From: Haloplanus salinus
GTDB taxonomy: Archaea > Halobacteriota > Halobacteria > Halobacteriales > Haloferacaceae
Direction of reading: 5' to 3'
Length of the DNA: 64,000 nt
NCBI RefSeq assembly: GCF_003336245.1
Contig: NZ_QPHM01000001.1
Span: 1,364,001 to 1,428,000 of the forward strand
The notes under the pieces were generated by a model that was not told the origin of the DNA, searched no databases, and saw only the letters and a program-made list of their open reading frames with translations. A program made the position numbers and the translations under genes. Below, one piece after another: positions 48,816 to 61,462 of the stretch (the first letter of the stretch is position 1; every line of letters starts with the position of its first letter).

Positions 48816-48836
48816 ACCCCTTCGCTTCGGGTGGAG
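48816..48836 (-). repeat. Orphan origin-recognition-box-like site
   Basis: On the minus strand this reads CTCCACCCGAAGCGAAGGGG plus T and matches the origin boxes at 56.8-57.3 kb at 19 of 21 positions. It lies in the 41-bp gap between two convergent genes, 8 kb from the origin. It lacks the G-string that follows ORB1 and ORB2. Confidence 0.65.
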
Positions 48837-48845
48837 ATGGACCGT

Positions 48846-49457
48846 TTAACAGACGTTTTTCGGTTTGATACCCATCGACTCTAAGGTCTCGACGTAGTCG
48901 TCGTAAGTCGCCTCGACGACGGCCGTCGCGGCGGTGGCGGCGCGGTCCCAGTCGTCGTCGCCGGAACACGCGGAGTCGAGGGCGTCGACGACGCGACTCC
49001 GGTCGGCGTCGACGTCGTCCCGGATGTCGCGGAACTCGTTGGCCGTCGACGGATCGGCATCGCCGACGAAGAACCCGACCATCTGTCCGACCGTCCGGTC
49101 GAGGACGAGGAGGGAGCCGAGGGCGCCGCCGAGACGGGCGACGGTCCCGTCGAAGTCGGCGAGGACGTCATAGCGTCCGCGGTCCGCGGTGTCGGCCCCG
49201 GGGTCGACGGCGTCGCGCCGGTCGGCCGCCGAGGCGGCGAGGGTGGCGAACGTCTCCGCGGCGTCGTCGTCCGCGTCGTCGGCCCAAGATTCGAACGTCT
49301 CCGCGGCCGCGACGGCGTCGGCGGCCGCGGCGGCGCGGACCGCCTCGCCGGTCATGTCGCCGTCGGTGAGCGCGTACAGCCACTTCGAGGAGCCGAGTCG
49401 GGAGAGTTGGGTTTCCAGGTCGTCGGTCACCGTATCGACGAGCGTCGTACCGTCCAT
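48846..49457 (-). CDS. Haloarchaeal ferritin-like-fold hypothetical protein
   Basis: The 203-residue acidic, helical protein begins MDGTTLVDTVTDDLETQLSR and has SSKWLYALTDGDMTGEAV, GQMVGFFVGDADPSTANEF and a conserved end YVETLESMGIKPKNVC. Relatives are common in haloarchaea and are often labelled 'transcription antitermination protein', a name without visible support. The helix pattern resembles rubrerythrin/ferritin-like proteins, but the Glu-x-x-His metal motifs are not clear. Function unknown. Confidence 0.65.
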   Translation of the reverse strand: MDGTTLVDTVTDDLETQLSRLGSSKWLYALTDGDMTGEAVRAAAAADAVAAAETFESWADDADDDAAETFATLAASAADRRDAVDPGADTADRGRYDVLADFDGTVARLGGALGSLLVLDRTVGQMVGFFVGDADPSTANEFRDIRDDVDADRSRVVDALDSACSGDDDWDRAATAATAVVEATYDDYVETLESMGIKPKNVC

Positions 49458-49557
49458 ACGCGGCGATACGACGCCCCTTCGTTTGTATGCATCGCCAGCG
49501 GCTGGGCGGGTCGGGGGCGACTCGAAAGAACGGGTGGTCGGGGCCGGACGGGCGGCG

Positions 49558-50418
49558 TCAGTTACCCTTCTCGATGGGGGCGCCGACGAGGTTGCCCCAC
49601 TCGGTCCAGGAGCCGTCGTAGTTGATGGTGTCCTCGTAGCCGAGGAGTTCGTGGAGCGCGAACCAGGCGACGGAGGAGCGCTCGCCGATCCGACAGTAAG
49701 CGACGGTGGTGCCCTCGCCGTCGATGTCCTCCTCCGCGTAGAGATCCGCGATCTCTTCGCGGGTCTTGAACGTCCCGTCGTCGTTGGTCACCGCGGCCCA
49801 CGAGATGTTCTTCGCGCCGGGGATGTGACCGCCGCGCTGGGCGGTCTCCTGCAGTCCCGGCGGGGCGAGAATCTCGCCGGAGAACTCCTCGGGGCTTCGG
49901 ACGTCGACCAGCGGCAGGCCGCGTTCGACGGCGTTCTCCACGTCCTCGCGGTACGCGCGGATGCTCTCCCGGGGGCCGGACGCCTCGTAGTCGACGGCCG
50001 AGAACTCGGGGACCTCCTCCGTGAGCGGATAGTCGTTTTCCAGCCAGTAGTCGCGGCCGCCGTCCATCAGGCGCACGTCGTCGTGGCCGTAGTATTTGAA
50101 CTGCCAGTAGGTGTAGGCCGCGAACCAGTTGGAGTTGTCGCCGTACAGTACGACGGTGGAGTCCTCGGAGATGCCGTGGCTCCCCAGCAGGTCCTCGAAG
50201 TCCTCCTTCGAGAGGATGTCGCGGGTGGTCTGGTCCTGGAGTTGGGTCTCCCAGTTGAATCCGATGGCGCCCGGGGCGTGGCCCTCGTCGTACGCCTCCG
50301 TGTCCACGTCGACTTCTACGAGTCGGTGGGCCGGGTCGTCGCTCTGAAAGTCCGCGAGATGGTTCTCGACCCAATCCGCCGAGACGAGAACGTCCTTCGC
50401 GTACGCTGAGTCTGACAT
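49558..50418 (-). CDS. Thiosulfate sulfurtransferase (two-domain rhodanese)
   Basis: The 286-residue enzyme moves sulfane sulfur from thiosulfate to cyanide or a thiol acceptor. The first rhodanese domain (about 10-135) is inactive; the second (about 160-284) has the active Cys in AYCRIGERSSVAWF, whose CRxGxR loop is typical of thiosulfate-specific enzymes. RLVEVDVDTEAYDEGHAPGA and LVDVRSPEEFSGEIL are the usual domain starts. Start ATG 50418 is about 30 bp from a TATAAT element (50446-50451), so it should be leaderless. It is divergent from a second rhodanese. Confidence 0.92.
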   Translation of the reverse strand: MSDSAYAKDVLVSADWVENHLADFQSDDPAHRLVEVDVDTEAYDEGHAPGAIGFNWETQLQDQTTRDILSKEDFEDLLGSHGISEDSTVVLYGDNSNWFAAYTYWQFKYYGHDDVRLMDGGRDYWLENDYPLTEEVPEFSAVDYEASGPRESIRAYREDVENAVERGLPLVDVRSPEEFSGEILAPPGLQETAQRGGHIPGAKNISWAAVTNDDGTFKTREEIADLYAEEDIDGEGTTVAYCRIGERSSVAWFALHELLGYEDTINYDGSWTEWGNLVGAPIEKGN

Positions 50419-50721
50419 AGCAGTACCGGATACGGCACCCGGCCCTATAATCCTCACACAACGGGCAGACACGGCCATTCCTCGGGTTAACCGGATAATG
50501 TTGCCACGTTTCGGGCGGGAGAGCGGTCGTGGGCGGCGGTTGTCGCGGGTGGGCCGGGCGGATCGGGCGAATATCCGGAAAACGTTGCCTATGGATGCGA
50601 CGGTGACCGGACCGGCGCCGAGGGTGGCCATCGTAACGACCGGTTCGTCGCCCCGCCGTGGCGAACCGGCGGGAACGACTCACCGCAACAGTATAAAACG
50701 TGTGAGGCTGTACTGGCGCTC
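50419..50721. promoter_or_regulatory. Divergent promoter region between two rhodaneses
   Basis: The 303-bp gap holds a minus-strand TATA box at 50446-50451 and a plus-strand GTATAAAA at 50691-50698, each 27-30 bp from the start codon. The GC-rich middle contains no convincing ORF or RNA. Confidence 0.6.
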
Positions 50722-51513
50722 ATGACCGAGGATATCGTCGTGTCGGTCGACTGGCTCGCGGACCACCTGGACGAGGTGCGCGTCGTCGACGTGCGCGACG
50801 CGTGGGAGTTCGACGGCATCGGGCACCTCCCCGGTGCGGTGAACGTGCCGTTCGACCGGTTCCGGAGCGACGAGGGCGACGAGGGGATGTTGCCCGGCGC
50901 GGAGCGGTGGGCGGCGCTGCTGGGAGACGTGGGCATCGACCGCGACGACGCCATCGTCGCGTACGACGACGAGCACGGCGTCTTCGCCGCGCGCTTTCTC
51001 GTCACTGCGTTCCTGTACGGCCACGAGACCCTCCACCTCCTCGACGGCGACTTCAGCGCGTGGAGCCGGGAGCGCGAGACGACGAGCGAGGCGCCGTCCG
51101 TCGAGCCGTCGACCTACGACGTGCGAGAGCCGGCGGCGTCGCCCCTGGTCGACTTCGAGGCGGTTCGGGCGGCACTCGACTCCGACGCCGTGGTCGTCGA
51201 CACCCGCGAAGCCTGGGAGTACGAGGAGGGGCACCTCCCCGGCGCCGTCCAACTCGACTGGCGCGAACTCGTCGACGCGGAGACGCGGGGACTGAAACCC
51301 GACGCCGAACTCGAGTCGCTACTGGCGGAGCGAGGAATCACGCCCGACCGTCGGGTCGTGCTCTACTGCAACACCGCTAGGCGGATCAGTCACACGTACG
51401 TCGCGCTCCGGCATCTTGGCTACGACGCCGTCGACTTCTACGAGGGGAGCCTGACGGAGTGGACGGAGCGGGGCGGCCCCGTGGTCGAAGGAGCCGACGG
51501 AAACCCCGAGTAG
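50722..51513 (+). CDS. Two-domain rhodanese-family sulfurtransferase
   Basis: The 263-residue protein has two rhodanese domains (about 5-115 and 135-255). The second has the active Cys in LYCNTARRISHTYVAL; its loop CNTARR differs from the CRIGER loop of the neighbour, so substrate preference probably differs. The domain starts VRVVDVRDAWEFDGIGHLPG and VVDTREAWEYEEGHLPGA are clear. It uses its own leaderless promoter. The in vivo role, for example sulfur transfer for tRNA or cofactor thiolation, cannot be decided. Confidence 0.88.
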   Translation: MTEDIVVSVDWLADHLDEVRVVDVRDAWEFDGIGHLPGAVNVPFDRFRSDEGDEGMLPGAERWAALLGDVGIDRDDAIVAYDDEHGVFAARFLVTAFLYGHETLHLLDGDFSAWSRERETTSEAPSVEPSTYDVREPAASPLVDFEAVRAALDSDAVVVDTREAWEYEEGHLPGAVQLDWRELVDAETRGLKPDAELESLLAERGITPDRRVVLYCNTARRISHTYVALRHLGYDAVDFYEGSLTEWTERGGPVVEGADGNPE

Positions 51514-51558
51514 CTCACCCGAGGTGTCGGCGCTGGCCGCCGCGTTCCGGCGGTCCCG

Positions 51559-52554
51559 TTAGTCCTCGGAGACGCGCACGTCGTTGAGTTCCTCGGAGAG
51601 GTGGTCCGCCATCTCGACGACGAGCGCGACGGCGAGCGGGCCGGCGATGATGCCGACGGGACCGAGCGTCAGGAGGCCGCCGACGAAGCCGACGAAGTAG
51701 AGACTCCCGGGGAGGTCGGCCGTCTCCCGGGCGAGTCGGGGACGGATCAACACGTCGGGGAGCCACGCCACGAGGAGGGCACCGCCGACGAAGACGAGCG
51801 CCGCCGCCGCGGGGTCGCCGGCGAGCAGGTGGGCGACCGCGAGCAGGCCGATCAACAGCGACGGGCCGACCACGGGCAGGAACTGGAGGAGCGCCGAGAG
51901 AACGGCCAGCGTGAGGTAGTACGGGTAGCCGAGCAGATAGAAGAACACCAGCGCGATGACGAACGTTCCCGCCGCCGTCGCGGCCTGGAGCACGTAGATG
52001 GCGAAGAGGGTGGCACGGGCGCGGCGGCTCAGCGCCCGAACGACCTCCCGATAGGTGTGGGGAACGAGGGCGATGAGCGCGCGGTGGGTCGCGGCGGTGC
52101 GCGAGAGGAGGGCGAACACGACCATCACGAACACCGTCAGTTTGAGCGCGAGGACGGGGGCCGCGAGCGCGAACGACCGGGCGAGCGAGCGACCGAACGA
52201 GACGACGGTCGACCGCGCGTCGGCGAGGGTGACCGACGTCGAGAAGCCGTACACCTCGACGGTGACGGTCGGCGGGAGCGCGGAGAGAAAGGCGATGATC
52301 GCGTCGAGACGGAGCAACACGACGACGACGAGCGGAAGCGAGAGCGCGAAGACCGCGAGGACGGCGGTGACCGTGGCGGCGAGGCTCGCTCCCCACGACG
52401 AGAGCCCGCGGCGCGTCAGTTCCTCGCGGAGCGGGGAGAGCAGGTAGGCGACCGTCACGGCGAAAAAGACCGTCGCGAGCACGTCGGCGAGCATGGCCGC
52501 GGCCGCGACCGCCAGGAATCCAAAGAGCGTGCCGAACACGTGCCGGCGATCCAT
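51559..52554 (-). CDS. AI-2E family transporter (PerM-like)
   Basis: The 331-residue membrane protein has about eight helices in the AI-2E/PerM pattern, with YLLSPLREELTRRGLSSWGA after the first helices, a long amphipathic stretch, then FYLLGYPYYLTLAVLSALLQ followed by FLPVVGPSLL and a last block GGLLTLGPVGIIAGPLAVAL. Some members export autoinducer-2, others act as sodium/proton antiporters; the substrate is unknown here. The start MDRRHVFGTL at 52554 is preferred over an in-frame ATG 33 bp upstream. It is divergent from the DUF2391 gene. Confidence 0.85.
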   Translation of the reverse strand: MDRRHVFGTLFGFLAVAAAAMLADVLATVFFAVTVAYLLSPLREELTRRGLSSWGASLAATVTAVLAVFALSLPLVVVVLLRLDAIIAFLSALPPTVTVEVYGFSTSVTLADARSTVVSFGRSLARSFALAAPVLALKLTVFVMVVFALLSRTAATHRALIALVPHTYREVVRALSRRARATLFAIYVLQAATAAGTFVIALVFFYLLGYPYYLTLAVLSALLQFLPVVGPSLLIGLLAVAHLLAGDPAAAALVFVGGALLVAWLPDVLIRPRLARETADLPGSLYFVGFVGGLLTLGPVGIIAGPLAVALVVEMADHLSEELNDVRVSED

Positions 52555-52651
52555 CGTCACGACGTGACATGCGGCGGGTGCCGGCAAAACGGTTTCCCGA
52601 CCCAGCCGAACACCACGGTTTTAGGCGCGCGGGACCGGGATGGAGTCGAGT

Positions 52652-53107
52652 ATGGTCGGGCGACGACGACGATTCAGACTGGCGGATACCGCACAGCAGG
52701 TCGTCGGGGGCTTCCTGCTCGCCGGTCCTTTCGTCGTCACCGAGGAGGTGTGGACGCTGGCCGCGAACATGTCGTGGCTCCAGACCCTGTTGACCGTCGC
52801 CATCGTCTTCGGCATCGGCTACGGCGCCCTCTACAAGGCGGACGACCGGGATCCGGAAAGCGAGACCGAGGTGGGTGGCGTACCGCTCCGGTTCGTCTCG
52901 CTCGTCCTCGTGTCGTACTGTTCGGTGCTCGTCCTCGCCGTCGCGTTCGGCGCGCCCGGGACCTTCCTCGGCGACACCGGGGGACGGACGGTCGGGACGA
53001 ACGGGGTCCGGGTCGCCGTCCGAACGCTCGAAGTGACGGCCAAGGCGGTCAGCGTCGGCGCCGTGTTCAGCGTCGTCGGCGCCGCGACGGCCGACTCGCT
53101 GTTTTGA
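52652..53107 (+). CDS. DUF2391 membrane protein
   Basis: The protein has 151 residues from ATG 52652, or 155 from ATG 52640. A TATA-like GTTTTAGG at about 52617-52625 fits a leaderless start at the inner ATG. Helices are near 15-35, 43-58, 75-98 and 125-148. RLADTAQQVVGGFLLAGPFV and TEEVWTLAANMSW match DUF2391 integral membrane proteins. Function unknown. Confidence 0.75.
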   Translation: MVGRRRRFRLADTAQQVVGGFLLAGPFVVTEEVWTLAANMSWLQTLLTVAIVFGIGYGALYKADDRDPESETEVGGVPLRFVSLVLVSYCSVLVLAVAFGAPGTFLGDTGGRTVGTNGVRVAVRTLEVTAKAVSVGAVFSVVGAATADSLF

Positions 53108-53164
53108 AACCCCTCACACCGGGGTCACCCGCAGTCTTAAGTCCATCCGGTCGGTGGAATCGAT

Positions 53165-53752
53165 ATGGATTACACGCTCGCCATCGACGGCGCGCCGGCG
53201 ACCATCCCCGGCGGGACTGGGGTGCTCCTCCTCCACCCGAGCATCGGCGAGACCGACCGGATCGACACCGACTTTCTGAAGACCGACACCGACAACTTCC
53301 TCGTCATCTCGACCCGAACCACCGCCCGCGAGGTCGAACAGAAACTCGAACACTACGACGTGGACGAGTCGCGGGCCGAAATCCTCGACACCCTCTCGGT
53401 CGAGCGGGGGTACTCCCGGCGTCCCTCCGAGCGCGTCCACTACGTCGCCTCGCCGGACGACCTGGACGGCATCGTCGCCAAGACGGAGGCGTTTCTCGAC
53501 TCCCACGCCGGGAAGCGCCGCGTGAGCGTCGACTCGCTCACCGAGATGGCGTACTACGCCGACGAGGACGGGGTATACGAGGCGACGCGGCGGCTCCTCG
53601 ACCTCCTGGCGGAGTACGACGCCGTCGGCCTCTTTCACCTCTCGAAGGAAGTCCACGACGAGGAGACGTTGGACCGCTTTCGCGACCTGTTCGACGGCGT
53701 CCTCGACCTCGGCGTCGACGGCGACGTGGCCGTCGACTTCGGGGACGCGTAG
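53165..53752 (+). CDS. KaiC-like/DUF7090-type protein
   Basis: The 195-residue protein has the strand order of a RecA/KaiC-type ATPase core (VLLLHPSIGETDRIDTDFL, FLVISTRTTAREVEQ, RRVSVDSLTEMAYYAD, AVGLFHLSKE) but the P-loop is degenerate: HPSIGETD replaces GxxxxGKT, so ATP binding is doubtful. Related haloarchaeal proteins are catalogued as DUF7090. A CTTAAG element at about 53135-53140 is 28 bp before the start. It ends exactly where the convergent gene ends. Confidence 0.7.
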   Translation: MDYTLAIDGAPATIPGGTGVLLLHPSIGETDRIDTDFLKTDTDNFLVISTRTTAREVEQKLEHYDVDESRAEILDTLSVERGYSRRPSERVHYVASPDDLDGIVAKTEAFLDSHAGKRRVSVDSLTEMAYYADEDGVYEATRRLLDLLAEYDAVGLFHLSKEVHDEETLDRFRDLFDGVLDLGVDGDVAVDFGDA

Positions 53753-54532
53753 CTACTCCAGCGTCTCGAAGGTCTTTCTCGCCCACCGGACCGCGTAGTC
53801 GGCCCCGTAGTCGACGTACGCCGCCGTATCGAGCGCCGCGAAGGGCGCCGGCAGATCGAGCCCGTGTTTGATCGCGGCGCAGGCGAGTTCCGTCGCGTCC
53901 GGGAACTCCGTCTCGCCCCGAGCGACGGCGCCCGGAAGCCCCGCGACGCGGTCCCGGAGTCGGTCGCCGGCGTCGACCCACGCGTCGTGGAGGGAGGGGT
54001 ACTCCTCGGCCCACGCCTCGAACGTCGGCCGGGTTCGGAGTCCCAGCCACCCGTCGTACAGCGCGGCACCGATCTGATAAACCGACGCCGGGTCGAGCGG
54101 CACCGCCGCGTCGAGGTCCGGATAGTGGTCGGCGAAGAACGGGAGAAACGCCTCGGGGGCGTCGAGCCCCACTTGGACGAGCGCCTCGGCGATCAGCAAG
54201 TCGAGGAAGGCGTCGGGCGTGCCCTCGGCGCGCGCCTTGCAGAAGACGACCGGCGGATCCGTCTGGCGCGTCCACGTTACGGTCCCGTCACCCGGGAGGC
54301 CGATAGTGAACGCCGACCCGGCGTACCGGCGAAGCGGCCGAGGGGCGTCGTCCGGCACCCACTCGGCGGGGTAGGTAGCCGGGTCGAGGGCGTCGACCAA
54401 GAGGCCGAGATCCTCGGCGGCCGCGGGCGGCAACGTCTCGAAGTCGCTGTCGACATCGAGGATGATCACGTCGGGGGCGTGGGCGGCGCGAATGGCTGCC
54501 AGTTCCCCGGAGAGCGACCGGCGCTCGAACAT
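53753..54532 (-). CDS. Haloarchaeal hypothetical protein (DUF7089-like)
   Basis: The 259-residue soluble acidic protein begins MFERRSLSGELAAIRAAHAP with VIILDVDSDFETLPP, and ends with TAAYVDYGADYAVRWARKTF. It is probably the DUF7089 family known to me beside DUF7090 genes, but that is memory only. The start ATG at 54532 overlaps the stop of the 29-residue membrane peptide gene by one base (TGATG read on the minus strand), which decides the start and suggests coupled translation. Confidence 0.65.
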   Translation of the reverse strand: MFERRSLSGELAAIRAAHAPDVIILDVDSDFETLPPAAAEDLGLLVDALDPATYPAEWVPDDAPRPLRRYAGSAFTIGLPGDGTVTWTRQTDPPVVFCKARAEGTPDAFLDLLIAEALVQVGLDAPEAFLPFFADHYPDLDAAVPLDPASVYQIGAALYDGWLGLRTRPTFEAWAEEYPSLHDAWVDAGDRLRDRVAGLPGAVARGETEFPDATELACAAIKHGLDLPAPFAALDTAAYVDYGADYAVRWARKTFETLE

Positions 54533-54621
54533 CAGGCGAGGAGGATACCGGCCACGAGCGCGGCCGCGAGGACCGCCGAGATTCCAACCGTTCCGAGCAC
54601 GACTTTGGTCGCCTGAGTCAT
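54532..54621 (-). CDS. 29-residue single-helix membrane peptide
   Basis: The frame encodes MTQATKVVLGTVGISAVLAA followed by ALVAGILLA, a single hydrophobic helix with a short polar N-terminus. A TATA-like TTATAAG (minus strand) at 54644-54650 is centred about 27 bp before the ATG, and the stop overlaps the next gene's start, so it is the first gene of a two-gene transcript. This is a credible small gene that automatic callers usually miss. Function unknown. Confidence 0.65.
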   Translation of the reverse strand: MTQATKVVLGTVGISAVLAAALVAGILLA

Positions 54622-54643
54622 ACGAACACACTCGGCACGGCAT

Positions 54644-54650
54644 CTTATAA
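54644..54650 (-). promoter_or_regulatory. TATA element of the 29-aa peptide/DUF7089-like operon
   Basis: CTTATAA on the plus strand lies 27 bp from the start codon of the 29-residue peptide. The rest of the gap up to 54871 holds no gene I can support. Confidence 0.55.
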
Positions 54651-54706
54651 CGGTTTCAGTCTCGGTGGCGAGCCGGGCTGCCGCAGCCGTCGCGAGCGAA
54701 GTGTGA

Positions 54707-54784
54707 TTTCGACTCCAGCGAAATCTGTTGATAACGCCGATTTCGAACCGGAACTGAAGAGTATTACAGTAGAAACGAGGGGGT
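54707..54784. repeat. Box-like elements downstream of oapC
   Basis: A 13-base GAAACGAGGGGGT at 54772-54784 differs from the origin-box core GAAACGAAGGGGT at one base. About 50 bp before it is TTTCGACTCCAGCG (54707-54720), which recurs exactly at 60105-60118 beside another box-like site, and which forms a small inverted repeat with the following CGAAAT. Confidence 0.4.
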
Positions 54785-54871
54785 TCAGGCCGAAGCCGTC
54801 GCTGGTCGAGTGCCGACCGTGGAGGTCCGAAACGCCCGGATACGGATCGACCGACGGCTGGATAAAAAGGG

Positions 54872-55525
54872 TTACGACTCGCCGTCGCGCCAGGTGTCGA
54901 CGACTTCGATGACGTAGTGACCGTCCTCTTGGAGCGAGATGATGCACTCCTGGCGGTCGTACAGTTCCATCAGGTTGAGTTCGTACTGCCCGGGTTCGAC
55001 GATTTTGATGCTCTCGAACTGGTCGTTGAGCTCCGCACGCAGGTCGTCGATGCCGGGCGACTCGGCCGCGTCGTCGTCGGGGGGGATCGCTCGGGCGGCG
55101 TCGTCGGCCGCCGGCGGTGGAGTCGCCACGTCGTCGAGTTCGTCGCGGGTGACCACGTCGCGACGGGCGTCGGCCTGTGCCGTGTCCTCCCCGAGGGCGC
55201 TCGGGTCGGACTCTGCCTCGATGTAGTCGGCGTCGGCGTCGGCGTCGGCATCGGCGTCGGGTGTCGATTCCGGGGGCGACGGCGCACGGCCCGGCGGGGC
55301 GTCGCCGTCGGGGGCGGTCGGCGATCCGGACGGCGTGCGATCAGGCGACGGTCGGGAGGATTGCGAGGCGTCGGCGTCGGCGCCGTCGTCCCCCAGCGTC
55401 GGCGTCGGCGTCGACGAGTCCGGTTTGAACTGGAACTTGTTGCCGCCACAGTCGGGACACCCCGAAAGCATCTCCTTGGAGCCGTCGGGGAAGACTCGCT
55501 CACAGTTCGTGCACTGGTGGGGCAT
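54872..55525 (-). CDS. oapC: Origin-associated zinc-ribbon protein OapC
   Basis: The 217-residue protein has an N-terminal zinc ribbon (CTNCERVFPDGSKEMLSGCP followed by DC), a long disordered Asp/Ala/Pro/Thr-rich middle with a DADADADADAD run, and a conserved C-terminal domain of about 65 residues (RAELNDQFESIKIVEPGQYE). The three-gene set zinc ribbon, DUF2073 and Era-like GTPase next to orc1 is conserved in haloarchaea and named oapC, oapB, oapA (origin-associated proteins). It begins two bases after oapB. The role in replication is inferred from location only. Confidence 0.85.
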   Translation of the reverse strand: MPHQCTNCERVFPDGSKEMLSGCPDCGGNKFQFKPDSSTPTPTLGDDGADADASQSSRPSPDRTPSGSPTAPDGDAPPGRAPSPPESTPDADADADADADYIEAESDPSALGEDTAQADARRDVVTRDELDDVATPPPAADDAARAIPPDDDAAESPGIDDLRAELNDQFESIKIVEPGQYELNLMELYDRQECIISLQEDGHYVIEVVDTWRDGES

Positions 55526-55527
55526 GG

Positions 55528-55926
55528 CTACTTGCGCGAGACGAGCGCGCTGATGAGGTTTTCGTCCTTGTGGAGCGTCTGGATCTGGTTAGCCGGGCCG
55601 ATGACGGTGAGTTTCTTCGTCGACTCGCGGCCCATCAGCCGGTCGAGGAAGCTTCGGTCGGCCGTCTCGGATCGAGGGTACGTCTCGATCTCGATGCCGT
55701 TGAACTCGTCGGGACTGATCTCGGTCATCGTCACCTCGATGAGCTTCGACTCCTCGTTCGGGGAGAGCCCCTCCTCGAGGATGACGATGTTGCCGTCCCG
55801 GACGCCGTCGAGGATGAGCCGCACCTTCTCCATGCTCGCCATCTCCTCCATCCGGGCGCCGCTGATGAGGTCGATCTGGACGCCGTCCTCGGCGTCGGTC
55901 GGAGTGACTTCGGGCATCTCTATCAC
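55528..55926 (-). CDS. oapB: DUF2073 protein OapB
   Basis: The 132-residue protein contains the DUF2073 signatures VQIDLISGARMEEMASMEKV and GNIVILEEGLSPNEESKLIE, and ends with LTVIGPANQIQTLHKDENLI. It starts at GTG 55926, overlapping the GTPase stop (GTGA), with an internal ATG nine bases later as the alternative. It pairs with the Era-like GTPase in most euryarchaea, where its biochemical role is still unknown. Middle gene of the oap operon. Confidence 0.88.
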   Translation of the reverse strand: MIEMPEVTPTDAEDGVQIDLISGARMEEMASMEKVRLILDGVRDGNIVILEEGLSPNEESKLIEVTMTEISPDEFNGIEIETYPRSETADRSFLDRLMGRESTKKLTVIGPANQIQTLHKDENLISALVSRK

Positions 55927-56564
55927 CCGAAGTACTCCGCGATCCTGTCGTACACTTCGTCCATGTTGTCGCCTTCGAGCGCCGACAGCGGAATCGTCCG
56001 ATGTTGGGGGAAGGCGTCCTCGATGCGCTTGACGTTCGAGTCGTCGAGGTCCGTCTTGTTCGCGAGGATGAGTACCGGGAGATCCTGGCTCTCGATGATG
56101 CCGATGAGCATGGTGTTGACCTGCGTGAACGGGTCCTCGGTGCTATCGAGGACGTAGATGACGCCGTCGACGTCCTCGCGGAGCCAGTGCATCGCCTCGG
56201 CGACCCCCTCCGTCGCCTCGCGGGAGCGACGGACCGCGTCCTCCTCGTCGATGTCGTGTTCGAGGAACTCCTTGTAGTCGACTTTCGTCGTCACGCCCGG
56301 CGTGTCGACGATGTCGATGGTGACGGTGCGCCCGTTGCGTTCGATTTCGACGTTCTCCTTCCGGCGCGCCCGTCGCGTCTCGTGCGGGACGTGGCTCTCC
56401 GGGCCGATGGCGTCGCCGGTCCAGTCGCGCGCGATCCGGTTCGCGAGCGTCGTCTTTCCGGCGTTCGGCGGGCCGTAGATCCCGATGCGTTTGGGATCGC
56501 TGGCCGAGAACAGTCGTTCTGTAACTCGTGCGATGCTGTCTCTGAGTCCTGTGAGCAGTCCCAT
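55923..56564 (-). CDS. oapA: Era-like GTPase OapA
   Basis: The 213-residue GTPase has G1 GIYGPPNAGKTTLANRIARD, G3 DIVDTPGVTTKVDYKEF, G4 LANKTDLDD and a G5-like ALEG near the C-terminus. Between G1 and G3 the HETRRARRKENVEIERN segment is the conserved archaeal insert. It is the first gene of the oapABC operon and faces the origin. The start MGLLTGLRDSIARV at 56564 is preferred to an upstream ATG that adds five residues. Confidence 0.88.
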   Translation of the reverse strand: MGLLTGLRDSIARVTERLFSASDPKRIGIYGPPNAGKTTLANRIARDWTGDAIGPESHVPHETRRARRKENVEIERNGRTVTIDIVDTPGVTTKVDYKEFLEHDIDEEDAVRRSREATEGVAEAMHWLREDVDGVIYVLDSTEDPFTQVNTMLIGIIESQDLPVLILANKTDLDDSNVKRIEDAFPQHRTIPLSALEGDNMDEVYDRIAEYFG

Positions 56565-56810
56565 CCTTTCCTCCCGCACCTCCCGTCTATCGCCGCGAGA
56601 GGGGCGTATGCGGGATCAAGGTCACGCCGTTCACTTAAGTGTGCGTCAGACAACCATAAAGGACCTGTCAGTAGCTCCGAGGGGTCGAGCGGCGACTCAG
56701 TGCCCCGGGACGACGCGTCAGCGCCCCGGCGAGCGGCGACGGGAGCGCGGCCGTCGACGGGGGGTGGCTCCACCGTCGCCGGGGCAGCGCCGGACGACAC
56801 GCCGATTCGG

Positions 56811-56840
56811 ACCCCCCCACCCCTTCGTTTCGGGTGGAAC
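56811..56840 (-). repeat. Origin recognition box ORB1
   Basis: On the minus strand this reads GTTCCACCCGAAACGAAGGG followed by G, T and a run of seven G, then T. It is identical over 30 bases to ORB2 in the opposite orientation. It is the predicted Orc1/Cdc6 binding site, with the G-string at the end away from the unwinding element. Confidence 0.9.
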
Positions 56841-56904
56841 GCCGACCCGGCCGGCGGCGAGGCGGCCGGACTTCGTCCTCGTCGCTTACTATCTCCTACT
56901 CCCT

Positions 56905-56985
56905 CTCGAAAACAACTATATTAGTTGCAGTGCGGATATTGTTGTATCTGTGTTGATTTATAGCTTTCCATGTTTATACTTCCGT
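56905..56985. other. AT-rich duplex-unwinding element
   Basis: Between ORB1 and ORB2 the GC content falls sharply: 12 of 40 bases in 56941-56980 are G or C, in a genome where most stretches exceed 60 percent. A small hairpin with arms CAACTA/TAGTTG sits at 56913-56927. This is the likely site of origin melting. Confidence 0.8.
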
Positions 56986-57011
56986 CACCACCCCCTCCCC
57001 CCGCTGATGAC

Positions 57012-57041
57012 GTTCCACCCGAAACGAAGGGGTGGGGGGGT
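57012..57041 (+). repeat. Origin recognition box ORB2
   Basis: Reads GTTCCACCCGAAACGAAGGG, then G, T, seven G and T. It is the exact inverted copy of ORB1, 171 bp away across the AT-rich element. Confidence 0.9.
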
Positions 57042-57261
57042 CCGTCCAACACGCCCCGGATCGCGACCGTTCCGTCGGACGCGTTCGGTCGCTCGGCGTG
57101 TGGGTGGCACACTCGTCCCCCGATTCGCGTCGTCGCGGGTGCTCTCGCGCTCCGAGGGGAAACTTTTTCTACCGCCCCCACCAGTGTTTCCTCTGGATCA
57201 TCTCGACGCGCGGATGGGGTGCCGGAGGTGGGGCCGTGGCTTTCCGAAAACGCAGCCCGTC

Positions 57262-57283
57262 TTCCACCCGAAACGAAGGGGTC
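57262..57283 (+). repeat. Origin recognition box ORB3 beside the orc1 start
   Basis: Matches ORB1/ORB2 over TTCCACCCGAAACGAAGGGG plus T, but the G-string is absent (it continues CACAAC). Seven bases separate it from the orc1 ATG, so Orc1 bound here could repress its own gene. Confidence 0.85.
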
Positions 57284-57290
57284 ACAACGG

Positions 57291-58823
57291 ATGGATTCAA
57301 ACGATACACCGCCTGACGAACGCCCTGAAGCCGAGCGACCCGACGACACGGAACTCCGCGACGCCCCTGCACGTGATCGGACTACCGACATCTCCCGCGA
57401 CGTCGACATCGACGACGTCCTCGACGACGAGGACGACGGCAGCCAAGGGCTGTTCGACGACCTACTGTCCGGCGAACCGATCTTCGAGAACAAGGAGGTG
57501 CTCCGCCCCTCCTACACGCCACACGAACTCCCCCACCGGAACGAGCAGATCAACCAGATGGCGACCATCCTCGTCTCGGCGCTCCGGGGCGACACCCCTT
57601 CGAACATCCTCATCTACGGCAAGACGGGGACGGGCAAGACGGCGAGCGCGAAGTTCGTCAGCAAGGAACTCGAATCCACGTCCCAGAAGTACGACGTCCC
57701 CTGCGAGGTCGAATACATCAACTGCGAGGTAACCGACACGCAGTACCGAGTGCTCGCCCGGCTCGCGAACAAGTTCATCGAGAAGAACCGGGCCGTCGTC
57801 GAGGACCGACTCGACGAACTGAGTGCCCTCCGTTCGGCGATTACGGACGGCGGCGAGACGCTGACGAACACGGCGTTCGACTCCATCGGCCGCATCGAGG
57901 ATCGCATCGAGACGCTGGAGGCCGACCTCGAGGGGATGGAACCCGTTCCCATGACGGGGTGGCCGACGGACCGCGTCTACAGTTCCTTCTTCGAGGCCGT
58001 CGACTACCACGAGCGCGTGGTCGTCATCATGCTCGACGAAATCGACAAACTCGTGGAAAAATCCGGCGACGACACCCTGTACAACCTCTCGCGGATGAAC
58101 TCCGAACTCGGCAACTCCCGCATCTCGATCATGGGGATCTCGAACGACCTGAAGTTCACCGACTTCCTCGATCCACGGGTCAAATCGAGCCTCGGCGAGG
58201 AAGAAATCGTCTTCCCGCCGTACGACGCCAACCAGTTGCGCGACATCCTCCAGCACCGCGCCGACGTGGCGTTCAAACGCGGCGCCCTCACGGAGGACGT
58301 CATCCCCCTGTGTGCCGCCTTCGCAGCGCAGGAACACGGCGACGCCCGCCGGGCGCTCGACCTCCTCCGCACCGCCGGCGAACTCGCCGAACGCGGCCAG
58401 GCAGACACCGTCGAGGAGGAGCACGTCCGCCAAGCCCAGGACAAGATCGAACTCGATCGGGTGGTCGAAGTCGTCCGCACCCTCCCCACGCAGTCGAAGA
58501 TCGTCCTCTTTGCGATCATCCTGCTGGAGAAAAACGGCGTCCACAACATCAACACCGGTGAGGTGTACAACATCTACAAGCGGCTCTGTGAGGAAATCGA
58601 CGCCGACGTGCTCACCCAGCGACGCGTCACCGACCTCATCTCCGAACTCGACATGCTCGGCATCGTCAACGCCGTCGTCGTCTCGAAGGGTCGGTACGGA
58701 CGCACGAAGGAGATCAGCCTCTCGGTTCCCGTCGAGGAGACCGAAGCCGTCCTCCTCTCTGACTCCCGTCTCGGCAACATCGAAGACGCCCGGCCGTTCG
58801 TCCAGGCACGGTTCGACAACTGA
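57291..58823 (+). CDS. orc1: Origin recognition initiator Orc1/Cdc6
   Basis: The 510-residue AAA+ initiator has an acidic disordered N-terminus (about 1-50), Walker A YGKTGTGKTASAKFVSKEL near residue 108, Walker B VVIMLDEIDKLVE near 246, sensor 1 ISIMGISNDLKF, sensor 2 HGDARRALDLLRTAGELAER, and a C-terminal winged-helix domain (about 400-510) that binds the origin boxes. ATG 57291 gives the conserved start; the frame is open further upstream, but that part would contain ORB2 and ORB3. It is adjacent to the origin and is the copy expected to act at it. A GAAACTTTTTC element near 57160-57170 may be its TATA box. Confidence 0.95.
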   Translation: MDSNDTPPDERPEAERPDDTELRDAPARDRTTDISRDVDIDDVLDDEDDGSQGLFDDLLSGEPIFENKEVLRPSYTPHELPHRNEQINQMATILVSALRGDTPSNILIYGKTGTGKTASAKFVSKELESTSQKYDVPCEVEYINCEVTDTQYRVLARLANKFIEKNRAVVEDRLDELSALRSAITDGGETLTNTAFDSIGRIEDRIETLEADLEGMEPVPMTGWPTDRVYSSFFEAVDYHERVVVIMLDEIDKLVEKSGDDTLYNLSRMNSELGNSRISIMGISNDLKFTDFLDPRVKSSLGEEEIVFPPYDANQLRDILQHRADVAFKRGALTEDVIPLCAAFAAQEHGDARRALDLLRTAGELAERGQADTVEEEHVRQAQDKIELDRVVEVVRTLPTQSKIVLFAIILLEKNGVHNINTGEVYNIYKRLCEEIDADVLTQRRVTDLISELDMLGIVNAVVVSKGRYGRTKEISLSVPVEETEAVLLSDSRLGNIEDARPFVQARFDN

Positions 58824-58845
58824 GTCGGGTCGGCGGACTGGACCG

Positions 58846-59724
58846 TCAACACACCCTTGCTGTGGCGACCCTCGCCGACGGTCGAAGCCCCGGCGTCACG
58901 ACGCCCTCCGATCCGGCACGCGCAGTCGTCAGTTCCGGCGCCGACGTGTTCCCAGCGGTCGCCGGCGCCGTCCCCACCGACGCCACGGGCGTCGCCGCTC
59001 CGGCCATCGTCGGCGCCGGCCCGCCGACCGCCCCGGGTGTCGACTCGAGGACGACTCCGGAGACACCGAGGCGAACCCAGCCGAGATACGGGATCCTGAC
59101 CCGTGCGGTGCCGACGATCCAGCCGGGCTTGACCGGTTCGCTGATCCCGTTCACCTGGTCGTACCCCCCGTTGGCGTCGCCTTTCGTCACGAACCCGGCG
59201 TGGGGTGCAGGGCAGTTCCGCATCTCCTCGCAGTCCCCCGCGCTCACGTATTCGGGGTCGGCCCGGTCGTACCAGTTCTCCCCCTCTTCGACCCAGAGGT
59301 GGGCGCGGTGGATCACGGGCGGTCCGGCGTCGGTCGGGTCGTCGTACACGATCACCGATCCGTGCCCGCCGAACTTCCAGTACTCCGTCTCCCGGGCCAC
59401 GTCCCGGGGAACGATGCCGGTGTCACCGTGCGCGGCGTCGGGCGCGAACCGACCGGTCTCGGTGATGAAGACCAGGTCACCCTTGTGCATGTGTGGCTCC
59501 ATACTTCCGCTCTCGACGGCGACCATCGGCGGCCAGACGCCGCTGAGCGTAAAGAGGAGGAGGCCGACGACGACCACGGCGCTGACCGAGAGGGCCGTCT
59601 CGCGCACCACCAAGAGGGGGCCGTCCGTCGCCGTCAGCACCTGTCGGATCACCCCGGGCGCCTCCCCGTCGTTCCCCTCGGAACCGTGACCGTCGGGAGG
59701 GTGGGGACCGTCGTCGGCACTCAT
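58846..59724 (-). CDS. sec11: Signal peptidase I (Sec11-like)
   Basis: The 292-residue membrane protease removes signal peptides from secreted proteins. It has a polar N-terminus (about 1-40), a transmembrane helix (TALSVSAVVVVGLLLFTLSG), the catalytic Ser in AVESGSMEPHMHKGDLVF, the His that replaces the bacterial Lys in VIHRAHLWV, and an Asp in TKGDANGGYDQVN; these are archaeal/eukaryotic ER-type features. A C-terminal extension of about 75 residues with a weak hydrophobic part follows IPYLGWVRLG. It is convergent with orc1 and divergent from polB, a neighbourhood seen in other haloarchaea. Confidence 0.92.
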   Translation of the reverse strand: MSADDGPHPPDGHGSEGNDGEAPGVIRQVLTATDGPLLVVRETALSVSAVVVVGLLLFTLSGVWPPMVAVESGSMEPHMHKGDLVFITETGRFAPDAAHGDTGIVPRDVARETEYWKFGGHGSVIVYDDPTDAGPPVIHRAHLWVEEGENWYDRADPEYVSAGDCEEMRNCPAPHAGFVTKGDANGGYDQVNGISEPVKPGWIVGTARVRIPYLGWVRLGVSGVVLESTPGAVGGPAPTMAGAATPVASVGTAPATAGNTSAPELTTARAGSEGVVTPGLRPSARVATARVC

Positions 59725-59803
59725 CGGTCTCCGTTTACCCCCGCCCGAGTTGAAGGTTCTGGACTTCCGGCACGTTTTTGACCGAACCCATCCACCCCTC
59801 GGT

Positions 59804-61462
59804 GTGCCCTTGGAGACGCCCGCGCGCATCGTCCGCGAACTCGCCCGCCGCGGCTACAACGCCGACCGCGAGGCGGTGACGCTCCTGGCGGGCGCCGCGG
59901 ATCCGGCGGCCGCCCTCGACGCCGCCGTCGAGACGGCGCCCGACGACGCCCTCCGACTCACCGCGGATCACGTCCGCACGATCCTCGATACGAACGGCGA
60001 CTCCCCCGCCGACGAGTCGCGGTCCGCCGACTCCCACGCGTCCGACGCGCAGTCGGCCCCGTCCGACCCCGACCCCGACCCCGACCCCACCGAACACCCC
60101 TCCGTTTCGACTCCAGCGTCCCCCACTCGGTCGGGGGCTCGAACTCCCGGCGCTCCAGTTGAAACGAAGGGGTCAGAGGCGAGCGACGGGGCGCCGTCGA
60201 CGCCGGCTACGGGTCCGACCGCCGGCGGCTCAGACGCCTCCGACTCCGACGCGCCCGACCGGACCGTCGACGTCGACGGCGACGTGACCGGCCGGAGTAC
60301 CGGCACCGGTGAGTACGGCGACTTCGTCTCCGTCTTCCGCGACCGGTACGAGAAGCTCTCCGGGCAGCTTCGCGGGCGGGTGAATCACCGCCCGGCCTCG
60401 GCTATCGCGGACATGCCCGGCGGGAGCGACGCCGCGATGATCGGCCTCGTCAACGACGTGCGCTCCTCGGCCAACGGCCACTGGATCGTCGAACTCGAGG
60501 ACACGACCGGCACCTTCCCCTGTCTGATCACGAAGGACCGCGACATCGCGCCTCTCGTCGACGAACTCCTCCTGGACGAGTGTGTCGCCGTCGAGGGAAC
60601 CCTCTCGGACGACGCGGGCATCGTCTTCGTCGACTCGCTCCACTTCCCCGACGTGCCCCGCACCTACCGCCCTTCGACCGCCGACCGGCACGTACAGGCC
60701 GCGCTCGTCTCCGACGTCCACGTCGGCAGTCAGGAGTTCATGGCCGACGCGTGGGGCCGGTTCGCCGACTGGCTCCACACCGACGAGGCCGACGCCATCG
60801 AGTACCTCCTCGTCGCCGGCGACATGGTGGAGGGCGTCGGCGTCTACCCCGATCAGGACGAGGAACTCGACATCGTCGACATCTACGACCAGTACGATCG
60901 GTTCTCGGAACACCTGAAGGAGGTGCCCGGCGACCTCGAAATCGTGATGATCCCCGGCAACCACGACGCGGTGCGCCTCGCGGAGCCACAGCCGGGCTTC
61001 GACGAGACGCTCCGGGACATCATGTCCGCTCACGATCCGCGGATCGTCGGCAACCCCTCGACCGTCACGGTCGAGGGCGTCTCCATCCTGATGTATCACG
61101 GCGTTTCGCTCGACGAGGTGATCGCCGAACTCCCCGAGGAGAAGGCGAGCTACGACCGTCCCCACCGAGCGATGTACCACCTCCTGAAGAAACGCCACGT
61201 CGCCCCGAAGTACGGCGGGCACATGCGCCTCGCGCCGGAGGATCGGGACTACCTCGTCATCGAGGACGTCCCCGACATCTTCCACACGGGCCACGTCCAC
61301 AAACTCGGCTACGGCAAGTACCACGACGTCCTCGCGGTCAATAGCGGCTGCTGGCAGGCGCAGACGGCCTTCCAGAAGAGCGTCAACATCGACCCCGACG
61401 CCGGCTTCGCGCCCATCGTCGACCTCGACACGCTCGACATGACGGTCCGCAAGTTCGCCTAA
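59804..61462 (+). CDS. polB: DNA polymerase D small subunit DP1
   Basis: The 552-residue proofreading subunit of PolD. Starting at GTG 59804 (MPLETPARIVRELARRGYNA), it has a small helical N-terminal domain, a disordered Ser/Asp/Pro linker (about 65-160), an OB-fold (GLVNDVRSSANGHWIVELED) and a calcineurin-like 3'-5' exonuclease domain with the metal motifs LVSDVHVGSQEF, VAGDMVEGVG, IPGNHDAVR, MYHG and TGHVHKLGYGKYH. All expected metal ligands are present. It partners the intein-bearing polC product. The linker DNA holds two origin-box-like sites. The stop overlaps the convergent gene by four bases. Confidence 0.95.
   Translation: MPLETPARIVRELARRGYNADREAVTLLAGAADPAAALDAAVETAPDDALRLTADHVRTILDTNGDSPADESRSADSHASDAQSAPSDPDPDPDPTEHPSVSTPASPTRSGARTPGAPVETKGSEASDGAPSTPATGPTAGGSDASDSDAPDRTVDVDGDVTGRSTGTGEYGDFVSVFRDRYEKLSGQLRGRVNHRPASAIADMPGGSDAAMIGLVNDVRSSANGHWIVELEDTTGTFPCLITKDRDIAPLVDELLLDECVAVEGTLSDDAGIVFVDSLHFPDVPRTYRPSTADRHVQAALVSDVHVGSQEFMADAWGRFADWLHTDEADAIEYLLVAGDMVEGVGVYPDQDEELDIVDIYDQYDRFSEHLKEVPGDLEIVMIPGNHDAVRLAEPQPGFDETLRDIMSAHDPRIVGNPSTVTVEGVSILMYHGVSLDEVIAELPEEKASYDRPHRAMYHLLKKRHVAPKYGGHMRLAPEDRDYLVIEDVPDIFHTGHVHKLGYGKYHDVLAVNSGCWQAQTAFQKSVNIDPDAGFAPIVDLDTLDMTVRKFA
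60096..60173. repeat. Inverted pair of origin-box-like sites inside polB
   Basis: The first site, minus strand 60096-60108, reads GAAACGGAGGGGT (one mismatch to the origin-box core) beside TTTCGACTCCAGCG. The second, plus strand 60161-60173, is GAAACGAAGGGGT, an exact core match, preceded by CTCCAGTT. The pair is inverted, about 50 bp apart, and sits in the disordered linker of DP1, where protein sequence is free to change. Confidence 0.6.

Follow-up and report, generated by a model that had tools for sequence, protein, structure and literature searches.

Little is known about how re-initiation is limited in archaea that carry many chromosome copies and several origins. The window analysed here, a 64-kb stretch of Haloplanus salinus DNA, raises this question in a specific form. 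It contains an origin next to the initiator gene orc1, together with further copies of the origin's recognition boxes that lie outside it. What could these additional boxes be for? The origin interval and orc1 comprise the following features.

56808..56841 (core 56820-56839), minus strand: ORB1, a G-tailed origin recognition box, from motif and repeat analysis
56889..56991, no strand: putative AT-rich unwinding element, GC minimum 0.36 at 56925-56974
56991..57002, plus strand: right half of an inner G-rich inverted repeat, left half missing in the window
57011..57044 (core 57013-57032), plus strand: ORB2, a G-tailed origin recognition box, from motif and repeat analysis
57156..57211, plus strand: predicted orc1 promoter/start block (GGGGAAACTTTTTCTA ... 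CTGGATCATCTCGACGCGC), conserved in 8 aligned same-genus sequences
57262..57282, plus strand: ORB3, a box lacking the extended G tail, 8 nt 5' of the orc1 ATG
57291..58823, plus strand: orc1 (Orc1/Cdc6 initiator), NF001625 equivalog; closest solved relatives 2qby and 2v1u

We identify the interval as oriC1, which is the ancestral origin of the haloarchaeal chromosome. The preliminary description had proposed an orc1-linked origin with a perfect inverted repeat of at least 30 bases, 171 bp apart, a seven-G tail on ORB1 and ORB2, and the sole strongly AT-rich segment between them. The repeat is real, with arms of 34 nt that are 100% complementary and a spacer of 169 nt. Both boxes terminate in a T followed by seven Gs, and the lowest GC content of the scanned range (56300-57800) falls between them. 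By an arithmetic estimate, only about 1e-10 perfect 34-bp inverted repeats would be expected in 64 kb. The core of the boxes, YTCCANNNGAAACRRRGGGG, has four exact matches in the 3.55-Mb genome, namely ORB1, ORB2, ORB3 and a box at 60153-60172, and the reversed pattern, used as a control, has none.

The assignment to oriC1 is backed by homology and architecture, both in this analysis and in the accessible parts of PMC3528665 and PMC3936714. These describe haloarchaeal oriC1 as G-tailed inverted ORBs around AT-rich DNA, and report that autonomous replication from Haloarcula hispanica oriC1 needs both ORBs and both G-strings. In the window, an orthologous orc1 adjoins the interval (an orc1 relative is present in 385 of 391 genomes of the class), the inverted ORBs enclose AT-rich DNA, and ORB1 and ORB2 carry the extended halophile G-string. 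The conserved neighbours are also present, comprising a GTPase, a polymerase gene and a signal peptidase, the last with a match below cut-off; their layout agrees with that given in a figure legend of PMC4010727, as far as this source is accessible. The inner G-rich inverted repeat, an enhancer that is not essential, is represented by its right arm only. A simple pattern search of 70 loci across the class recovered a right arm in 50 and a left arm in 5, with both arms together in 4. As the accessible parts of PMC3528665 and PMC3936714 report the same half-only repeat for several accepted oriC1, it is no bar to membership. The interval is a known origin type in a new genome, and the inverted-repeat finding is therefore ordinary in itself.

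The exact identity of ORB1 and ORB2 had earlier been taken to suggest gene conversion. This was not borne out, since the two boxes are non-identical in 68 of 70 loci; they are identical over 28 nt in the other two, both from this genus. ORBs differ at a mean of 3.49 positions within a genome and 3.84 between genomes (permutation P 0.005), a slight excess of similarity that would be in keeping with conversion but is accounted for by common ancestry and shared binding specificity. In these 70 loci exact identity is not general; gene conversion is not needed to explain it, and we consider it very unlikely as its source.

On one side, orc1 is flanked by genes for an Era-like GTPase, OapB and OapC, and on the other by a signal-peptidase-like gene and dp1.

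54872-55525, minus strand: oapC, OapC match, origin-linked
55528-55926, minus strand: oapB, OapB match, origin-linked
55923-56579, minus strand: Era-like GTPase, origin-linked, in one block with oapB and oapC (54872..56579)
58846-59829, minus strand: signal-peptidase-like ORF, match of 44.3 of 51.85 bits, below the model's cut-off
59804..61462, plus strand: dp1, DNA polymerase D small subunit, GTG start (NF003116)

The signal-peptidase-like ORF and dp1 are divergent with overlapping starts, so that each promoter probably lies inside the coding DNA of the other gene. Elsewhere, the genome has several more orc paralogues (L002-L008), on the chromosome and on two smaller contigs; some may be broken, as the L002 and L006 matches contain an in-frame TGA.

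ORB3 repeats the first 21 nt of the ORB arms identically, on the same strand as orc1, and is missing the G tail. The preliminary description was right about the missing tail, and its gap of seven bases to the orc1 ATG is corrected here to 8 nt (ATG at 57291). Its division of the boxes into those with and those without a G tail holds up comparatively. Among 77 haloarchaeal loci (two duplicates, L090 and L106, dropped; third box defined as G-less beforehand), 70 have the G-tailed inverted pair and 67 have a G-less box that reads in the direction of orc1 and lies 4-30 nt 5' of an in-frame orc1 ATG. A comparable box precedes 13 of 4138 other ATGs. In a check that did not filter for the tail, the box before orc1 carried one in 1 of 66 cases. 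On sequence grounds, the candidate origin is formed by G-tailed boxes, and a G-less box precedes orc1.

Between ORB2 and the orc1 ATG, eight same-genus sequences share two conserved blocks: GGGGAAA-TTTTTCTA with CTGGATCATCTSGACGCGC near 57156-57211, and ORB3. The first block is the predicted orc1 promoter. As this promoter-like block lies about 100 bp upstream, ORB3 is probably located in the transcribed orc1 leader, off the core promoter. The leader has no Rfam match and no convincing consensus fold (mean MFE z -0.33), no dyad occurs upstream of ORB3 class-wide, and a bacterial promoter/terminator scan of the region is uninformative for archaea. In relatives (e.g. L020 and L095), the AT content of the roughly 60 bp upstream of ORB3 follows a 10-bp period locked to ORB3. 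The phase concentration is 0.83-0.84 in 43-73 sequences after thinning, far above jitter controls. The periodicity lies above the 95th percentile of random windows in 57% of 54 sequences, and the sequence of our own window does not exceed it. This zone, which is accompanied by no RNA structure, has the appearance of DNA that is wrapped or rotationally phased. Weaker AT periodicity (10-10.5 bp) marks a second zone in relatives, about 220-160 bp upstream of ORB3.

The boxes do not stop at this leader. oriC1 lies in the middle of a neighbourhood of roughly 11 kb that contains extra conserved boxes, here called satellites. Seven boxes are found in the window when up to two mismatches are allowed, all of them inside 48817-60172, and the motif extends beyond the originally noted interval to the following sites.

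48817..48836, minus strand: satellite box between two apparently convergent genes, one mismatch, same place in 7 of 12 same-genus genomes
54764..54783, plus strand: satellite box 3' of oapC, one mismatch, same place in 8 of 12 same-genus genomes
60097..60116, minus strand: left box in dp1, G-less, two mismatches, core-motif match
60153..60172, plus strand: right box in dp1, G-less, no mismatches, core-motif match

The satellites have the core YTCCANNNGAAACRRRGGGG, from which the left dp1 box of the window is two mismatches off; the mismatch limits of all box searches were our own choice. At up to one mismatch, the genome has seven sites, 6 of them within 12 kb, and 12 same-genus genomes have 65 of their 75 sites in the territory, with 4 in the control. 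Across 41 oriC1 regions from 27 genera, the same limit yields 255 boxes, of which 80 belong to origin pairs and 175 do not (2-8 per genome); 40 of these regions were hand-picked from about 150 listed places (385 genomes matched) so as to cover many genera and leave space on either side, with lower-scoring families under-represented and related genomes giving non-independent counts. Origin boxes occur in 40 of the 41 genomes (80 boxes), boxes between the origin and orc1 likewise in 40 (52 boxes), and dp1 boxes in 31 (42 boxes), dp1 itself not being found in 4. The other non-origin boxes lie 3' of oapC (16), 3' of orc1 (11), 3' of dp1 (8), more than 4.5 kb upstream (28) or elsewhere (18). The G tail is found on 80 of 80 origin boxes, as the definition of the pair entails, on 2 of 52 leader boxes and on 2 of 42 dp1 boxes. 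In the same genomes, 20 distant 20-kb control regions (400 kb) contain no boxes even at up to two mismatches, and 20 regions 10-30 kb away (400 kb) contain 10 at up to one mismatch and 14 at up to two.

The non-origin boxes are also strand-biased, with 133 on the plus and 42 on the minus strand; plus orientation is seen in 48 of the 52 leader boxes and 28 of the 42 dp1 boxes. The satellites favour the same strand to the left of the origin (35 plus vs 15 minus) and to the right, outside dp1 (16 vs 8). Their G ends therefore face the origin on one flank and face away from it on the other.

The pair inside dp1 allows selection on the box to be separated from selection on the protein. In relatives, the dp1 linker contains box matches about 1.3 kb beyond orc1, frequently arranged as inverted pairs whose G ends face outward. 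When the spacer was fixed at 36 nt and up to three mismatches were allowed, such a pair was found in 207 of 391 genomes of the haloarchaeal class, in none of the controls and in 0 of 124 genomes from other classes of the phylum; among the matches listed, all 30 pair loci that were fetched lie inside dp1. In 53 dp1 genes that were not selected for boxes (three duplicates and one incomplete gene omitted), at up to one mismatch the right box is present in 40, the left box in 29 and either in 44, and both are missing in 5. Where both boxes are recognisable (n=31), their offset is 56 in 23 genes, 53 in four, 68 in three and 71 in one. Between the right box and the conserved protein motif that follows it, the spacing varies from 32 to 254 nt. 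Of the orc1 coding blocks, 1 in 81 has a box.

Could the boxes merely resemble ORBs while encoding conserved linker peptides (PSVST, PVETKGS)? Their frames are constant and the peptides recur, as this explanation would have it. However, when synonymous codons were shuffled 200 times, the match was abolished, with a mean of 0.54 and a maximum of 2 of the 53 genes retaining a box against the 44 observed. The third codon positions track the ORB and not haloarchaeal codon usage. In 41 dp1 genes (four duplicates and six without the core motif dropped), Pro is CCA in 29 of 29 cases (background 8.6%), the preceding codon ends in T in 29 of 29 (9%), and Val is GTT in 23 of 23 (9%). Gly is GGA in 22 of 22 cases in the left box (13%) and GGG in 28 of 29 in the right box (23%). 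Control columns of the same amino acids elsewhere lack such a bias, reaching at best 38% for CCA, 24% for GTT and 29% for GGA, and the middle residue of the peptide varies freely. P values go down to 1e-31, assuming an independence that related genomes violate. The two strongest synonymous-constraint windows of dp1 are the two boxes. As the sites were located by peptide, DNA was not the selecting criterion, and their invariant rare codons thus reveal selection at the DNA level. The codon bias and the shuffles refute the linker peptide as the sole cause, and we give the peptide explanation almost no credence.

The boxes accompany dp1 beyond the origin neighbourhood. In seven genomes, dp1 lies about 13-93 kb from orc1, the same-contig placement being partly inferred, and still contains at least one box (Haladaptatus DYF46, MAG QS_8_69_73, Haladaptatus halobius, Halobellus Atlit-31R, Halorubrum 48-1-W, Halosegnis rubeus and Halovenus salina). 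In three f11 genomes (L193, L195 and L196), dp1 has no box. In one genome (L197, G285:C17:27014-27089), an inverted pair with a 36-nt spacer is found on a contig other than that of dp1, and the dp1 of that genome is box-free. A role of the dp1 boxes directed at sec11 is weakened, because two Halorubrum dp1 loci retain a plus box while the 1.5 kb upstream contains no sec11 match.

What, then, do the satellites do? We see an even chance that they are Orc1 titration sites that damp re-initiation at oriC1. Recruitment of Orc1 by the origin pair for initiation is established for the family. Orc1, encoded next door, would bind the G-tailed inverted ORB1 and ORB2 and open the AT-rich DNA between them. 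The satellites begin about 8.5 kb upstream of orc1, extend as far as dp1 and comprise the box at 48.8 kb, the box 3' of oapC, the box before the orc1 ATG and the dp1 pair. They retain the portion that archaeal ORBs share, without the extension needed for firing, and we infer that they most likely bind Orc1 without firing. As they adjoin the origin, they would be copied right after initiation and could then soak up Orc1, so that re-initiation is damped, as proposed for oriC2D of Haloarcula hispanica. ORB3 may additionally hold back orc1 transcription. Titration seems likeliest to us on two counts: where the boxes gather depends on proximity to the origin rather than on the gene, and the same role has been proposed for a compact ORB cluster that serves Haloarcula hispanica oriC2. 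Against it, the satellites are few, dispersed and partly coding, unlike the compact oriC2D, and neither their strand bias (133 vs 42) nor the 56-bp offset in dp1 (23 of 31) is needed for simple titration. The wider proposal, that oriC1 sits in a conserved territory of Orc1 boxes, in which dispersed, strand-biased G-less boxes, including a dp1 pair maintained against codon bias, provide cis-acting control of initiation, could in our estimate equally prove right or wrong.

The main rival, possible though on the doubtful side, is that the G-less boxes are operators, at which Orc1 bound in the orc1 leader and in dp1 blocks elongation by RNA polymerase. The initiator level may then set the supply of both Orc1 and a replicative polymerase subunit. 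Such operators would fit the position of ORB3 just 5' of the ATG (in 67 of 77 loci, compared with 13 of 4138 other ATGs), the dominant plus orientation at orc1 and dp1, the fact that these are the most conserved box places, and the plus box that persists in the two Halorubrum loci. They would also fit the boxes that accompany dp1 far from orc1; as these are kept over 13-93 kb, a role in dp1 suits them as well as a role at the origin. Operators leave unexplained the satellites 3' of oapC, orc1 and dp1 or 5-10 kb upstream. A structural territory, in which Orc1 at dispersed boxes gathers the origin into a nucleoprotein hub for looping, sister-origin cohesion or segregation, would account for boxes spread over about 15 kb with a density that drops beyond 10 kb, and for their consistent strand preference. 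Clusters of parS that surround bacterial origins offer a comparison. We nevertheless find a hub improbable, as the positions of ORB3 and the dp1 pair are much better conserved than those of the remaining boxes. Decayed or dormant origins would share the outward-G polarity that the dp1 pair has in common with the origin pair, but the 36-bp dp1 spacer is too short for much of an unwinding element, the G tails that are essential in Haloarcula hispanica oriC1 are missing, and conservation is strong rather than decaying, which makes this origin of the satellites highly unlikely.

If the proposed cis-acting control of initiation is true, it has been overlooked by origin searches that demand intergenic, G-tailed boxes. 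In the accessible parts of their descriptions, published ORB searches cover intergenic regions only and keep repeats with a G-string, which excludes ORB3 and the dp1 pair. Those parts of PMC3528665, PMC3936714, PMC12141716, PMC7776575, PMC4595724, PMC4010727, PMC4441112 and PMC3119063 do not mention ORB3 or the dp1 boxes; the 2007 Haloferax volcanii origin-mapping paper may mention them. While the origin itself is known, we found the ORB3, dp1 and satellite boxes not described in the accessible parts of the literature searched. Conserved boxes outside the origin, strong in an essential polymerase gene, allow the exact bases to be recoded without changing the protein, and they occur in model species that are easy to handle. 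The G tail separates the two box types and thereby helps to annotate true origins as opposed to regulatory sites. Satellite boxes may help to decide the timing of chromosome copying, if Orc1 is bound there.

The overall architecture of the origin resembles oriC1-cdc6A of Haloarcula hispanica and oriC1 of Haloferax volcanii, with AT-rich DNA enclosed by inverted G-tailed ORBs on the upstream side of orc1 and with adjoining GTPase, signal peptidase and polymerase genes. It differs from described haloarchaeal oriC1 in that the inner G-rich repeat is reduced to its right half, and the accessible descriptions are silent on ORB3 and the dp1 boxes, both of which occur here. The arrangement of the satellites is reminiscent of datA and DnaA-box control in Escherichia coli, where initiator sites also lie outside the origin and at the initiator gene. 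However, there is no homology between the two, and the initiator family and the boxes are different. Closer to the satellites is oriC2D of Haloarcula hispanica, for which the accessible parts of PMC3936714 report 11 ORBs downstream of cdc6E, negative control and a proposed titration of the initiator. In both cases, extra boxes for the cognate initiator lie outside the origin. Whereas those 11 ORBs share one 722-bp intergenic region of another origin, the window has no ORB cluster in one intergenic region directly downstream of its initiator gene. Its satellites are G-less boxes, single or in pairs, that are spread across about 11 kb around oriC1, some of them coding and two inside dp1, and for this reason we do not assign them to the oriC2D type.
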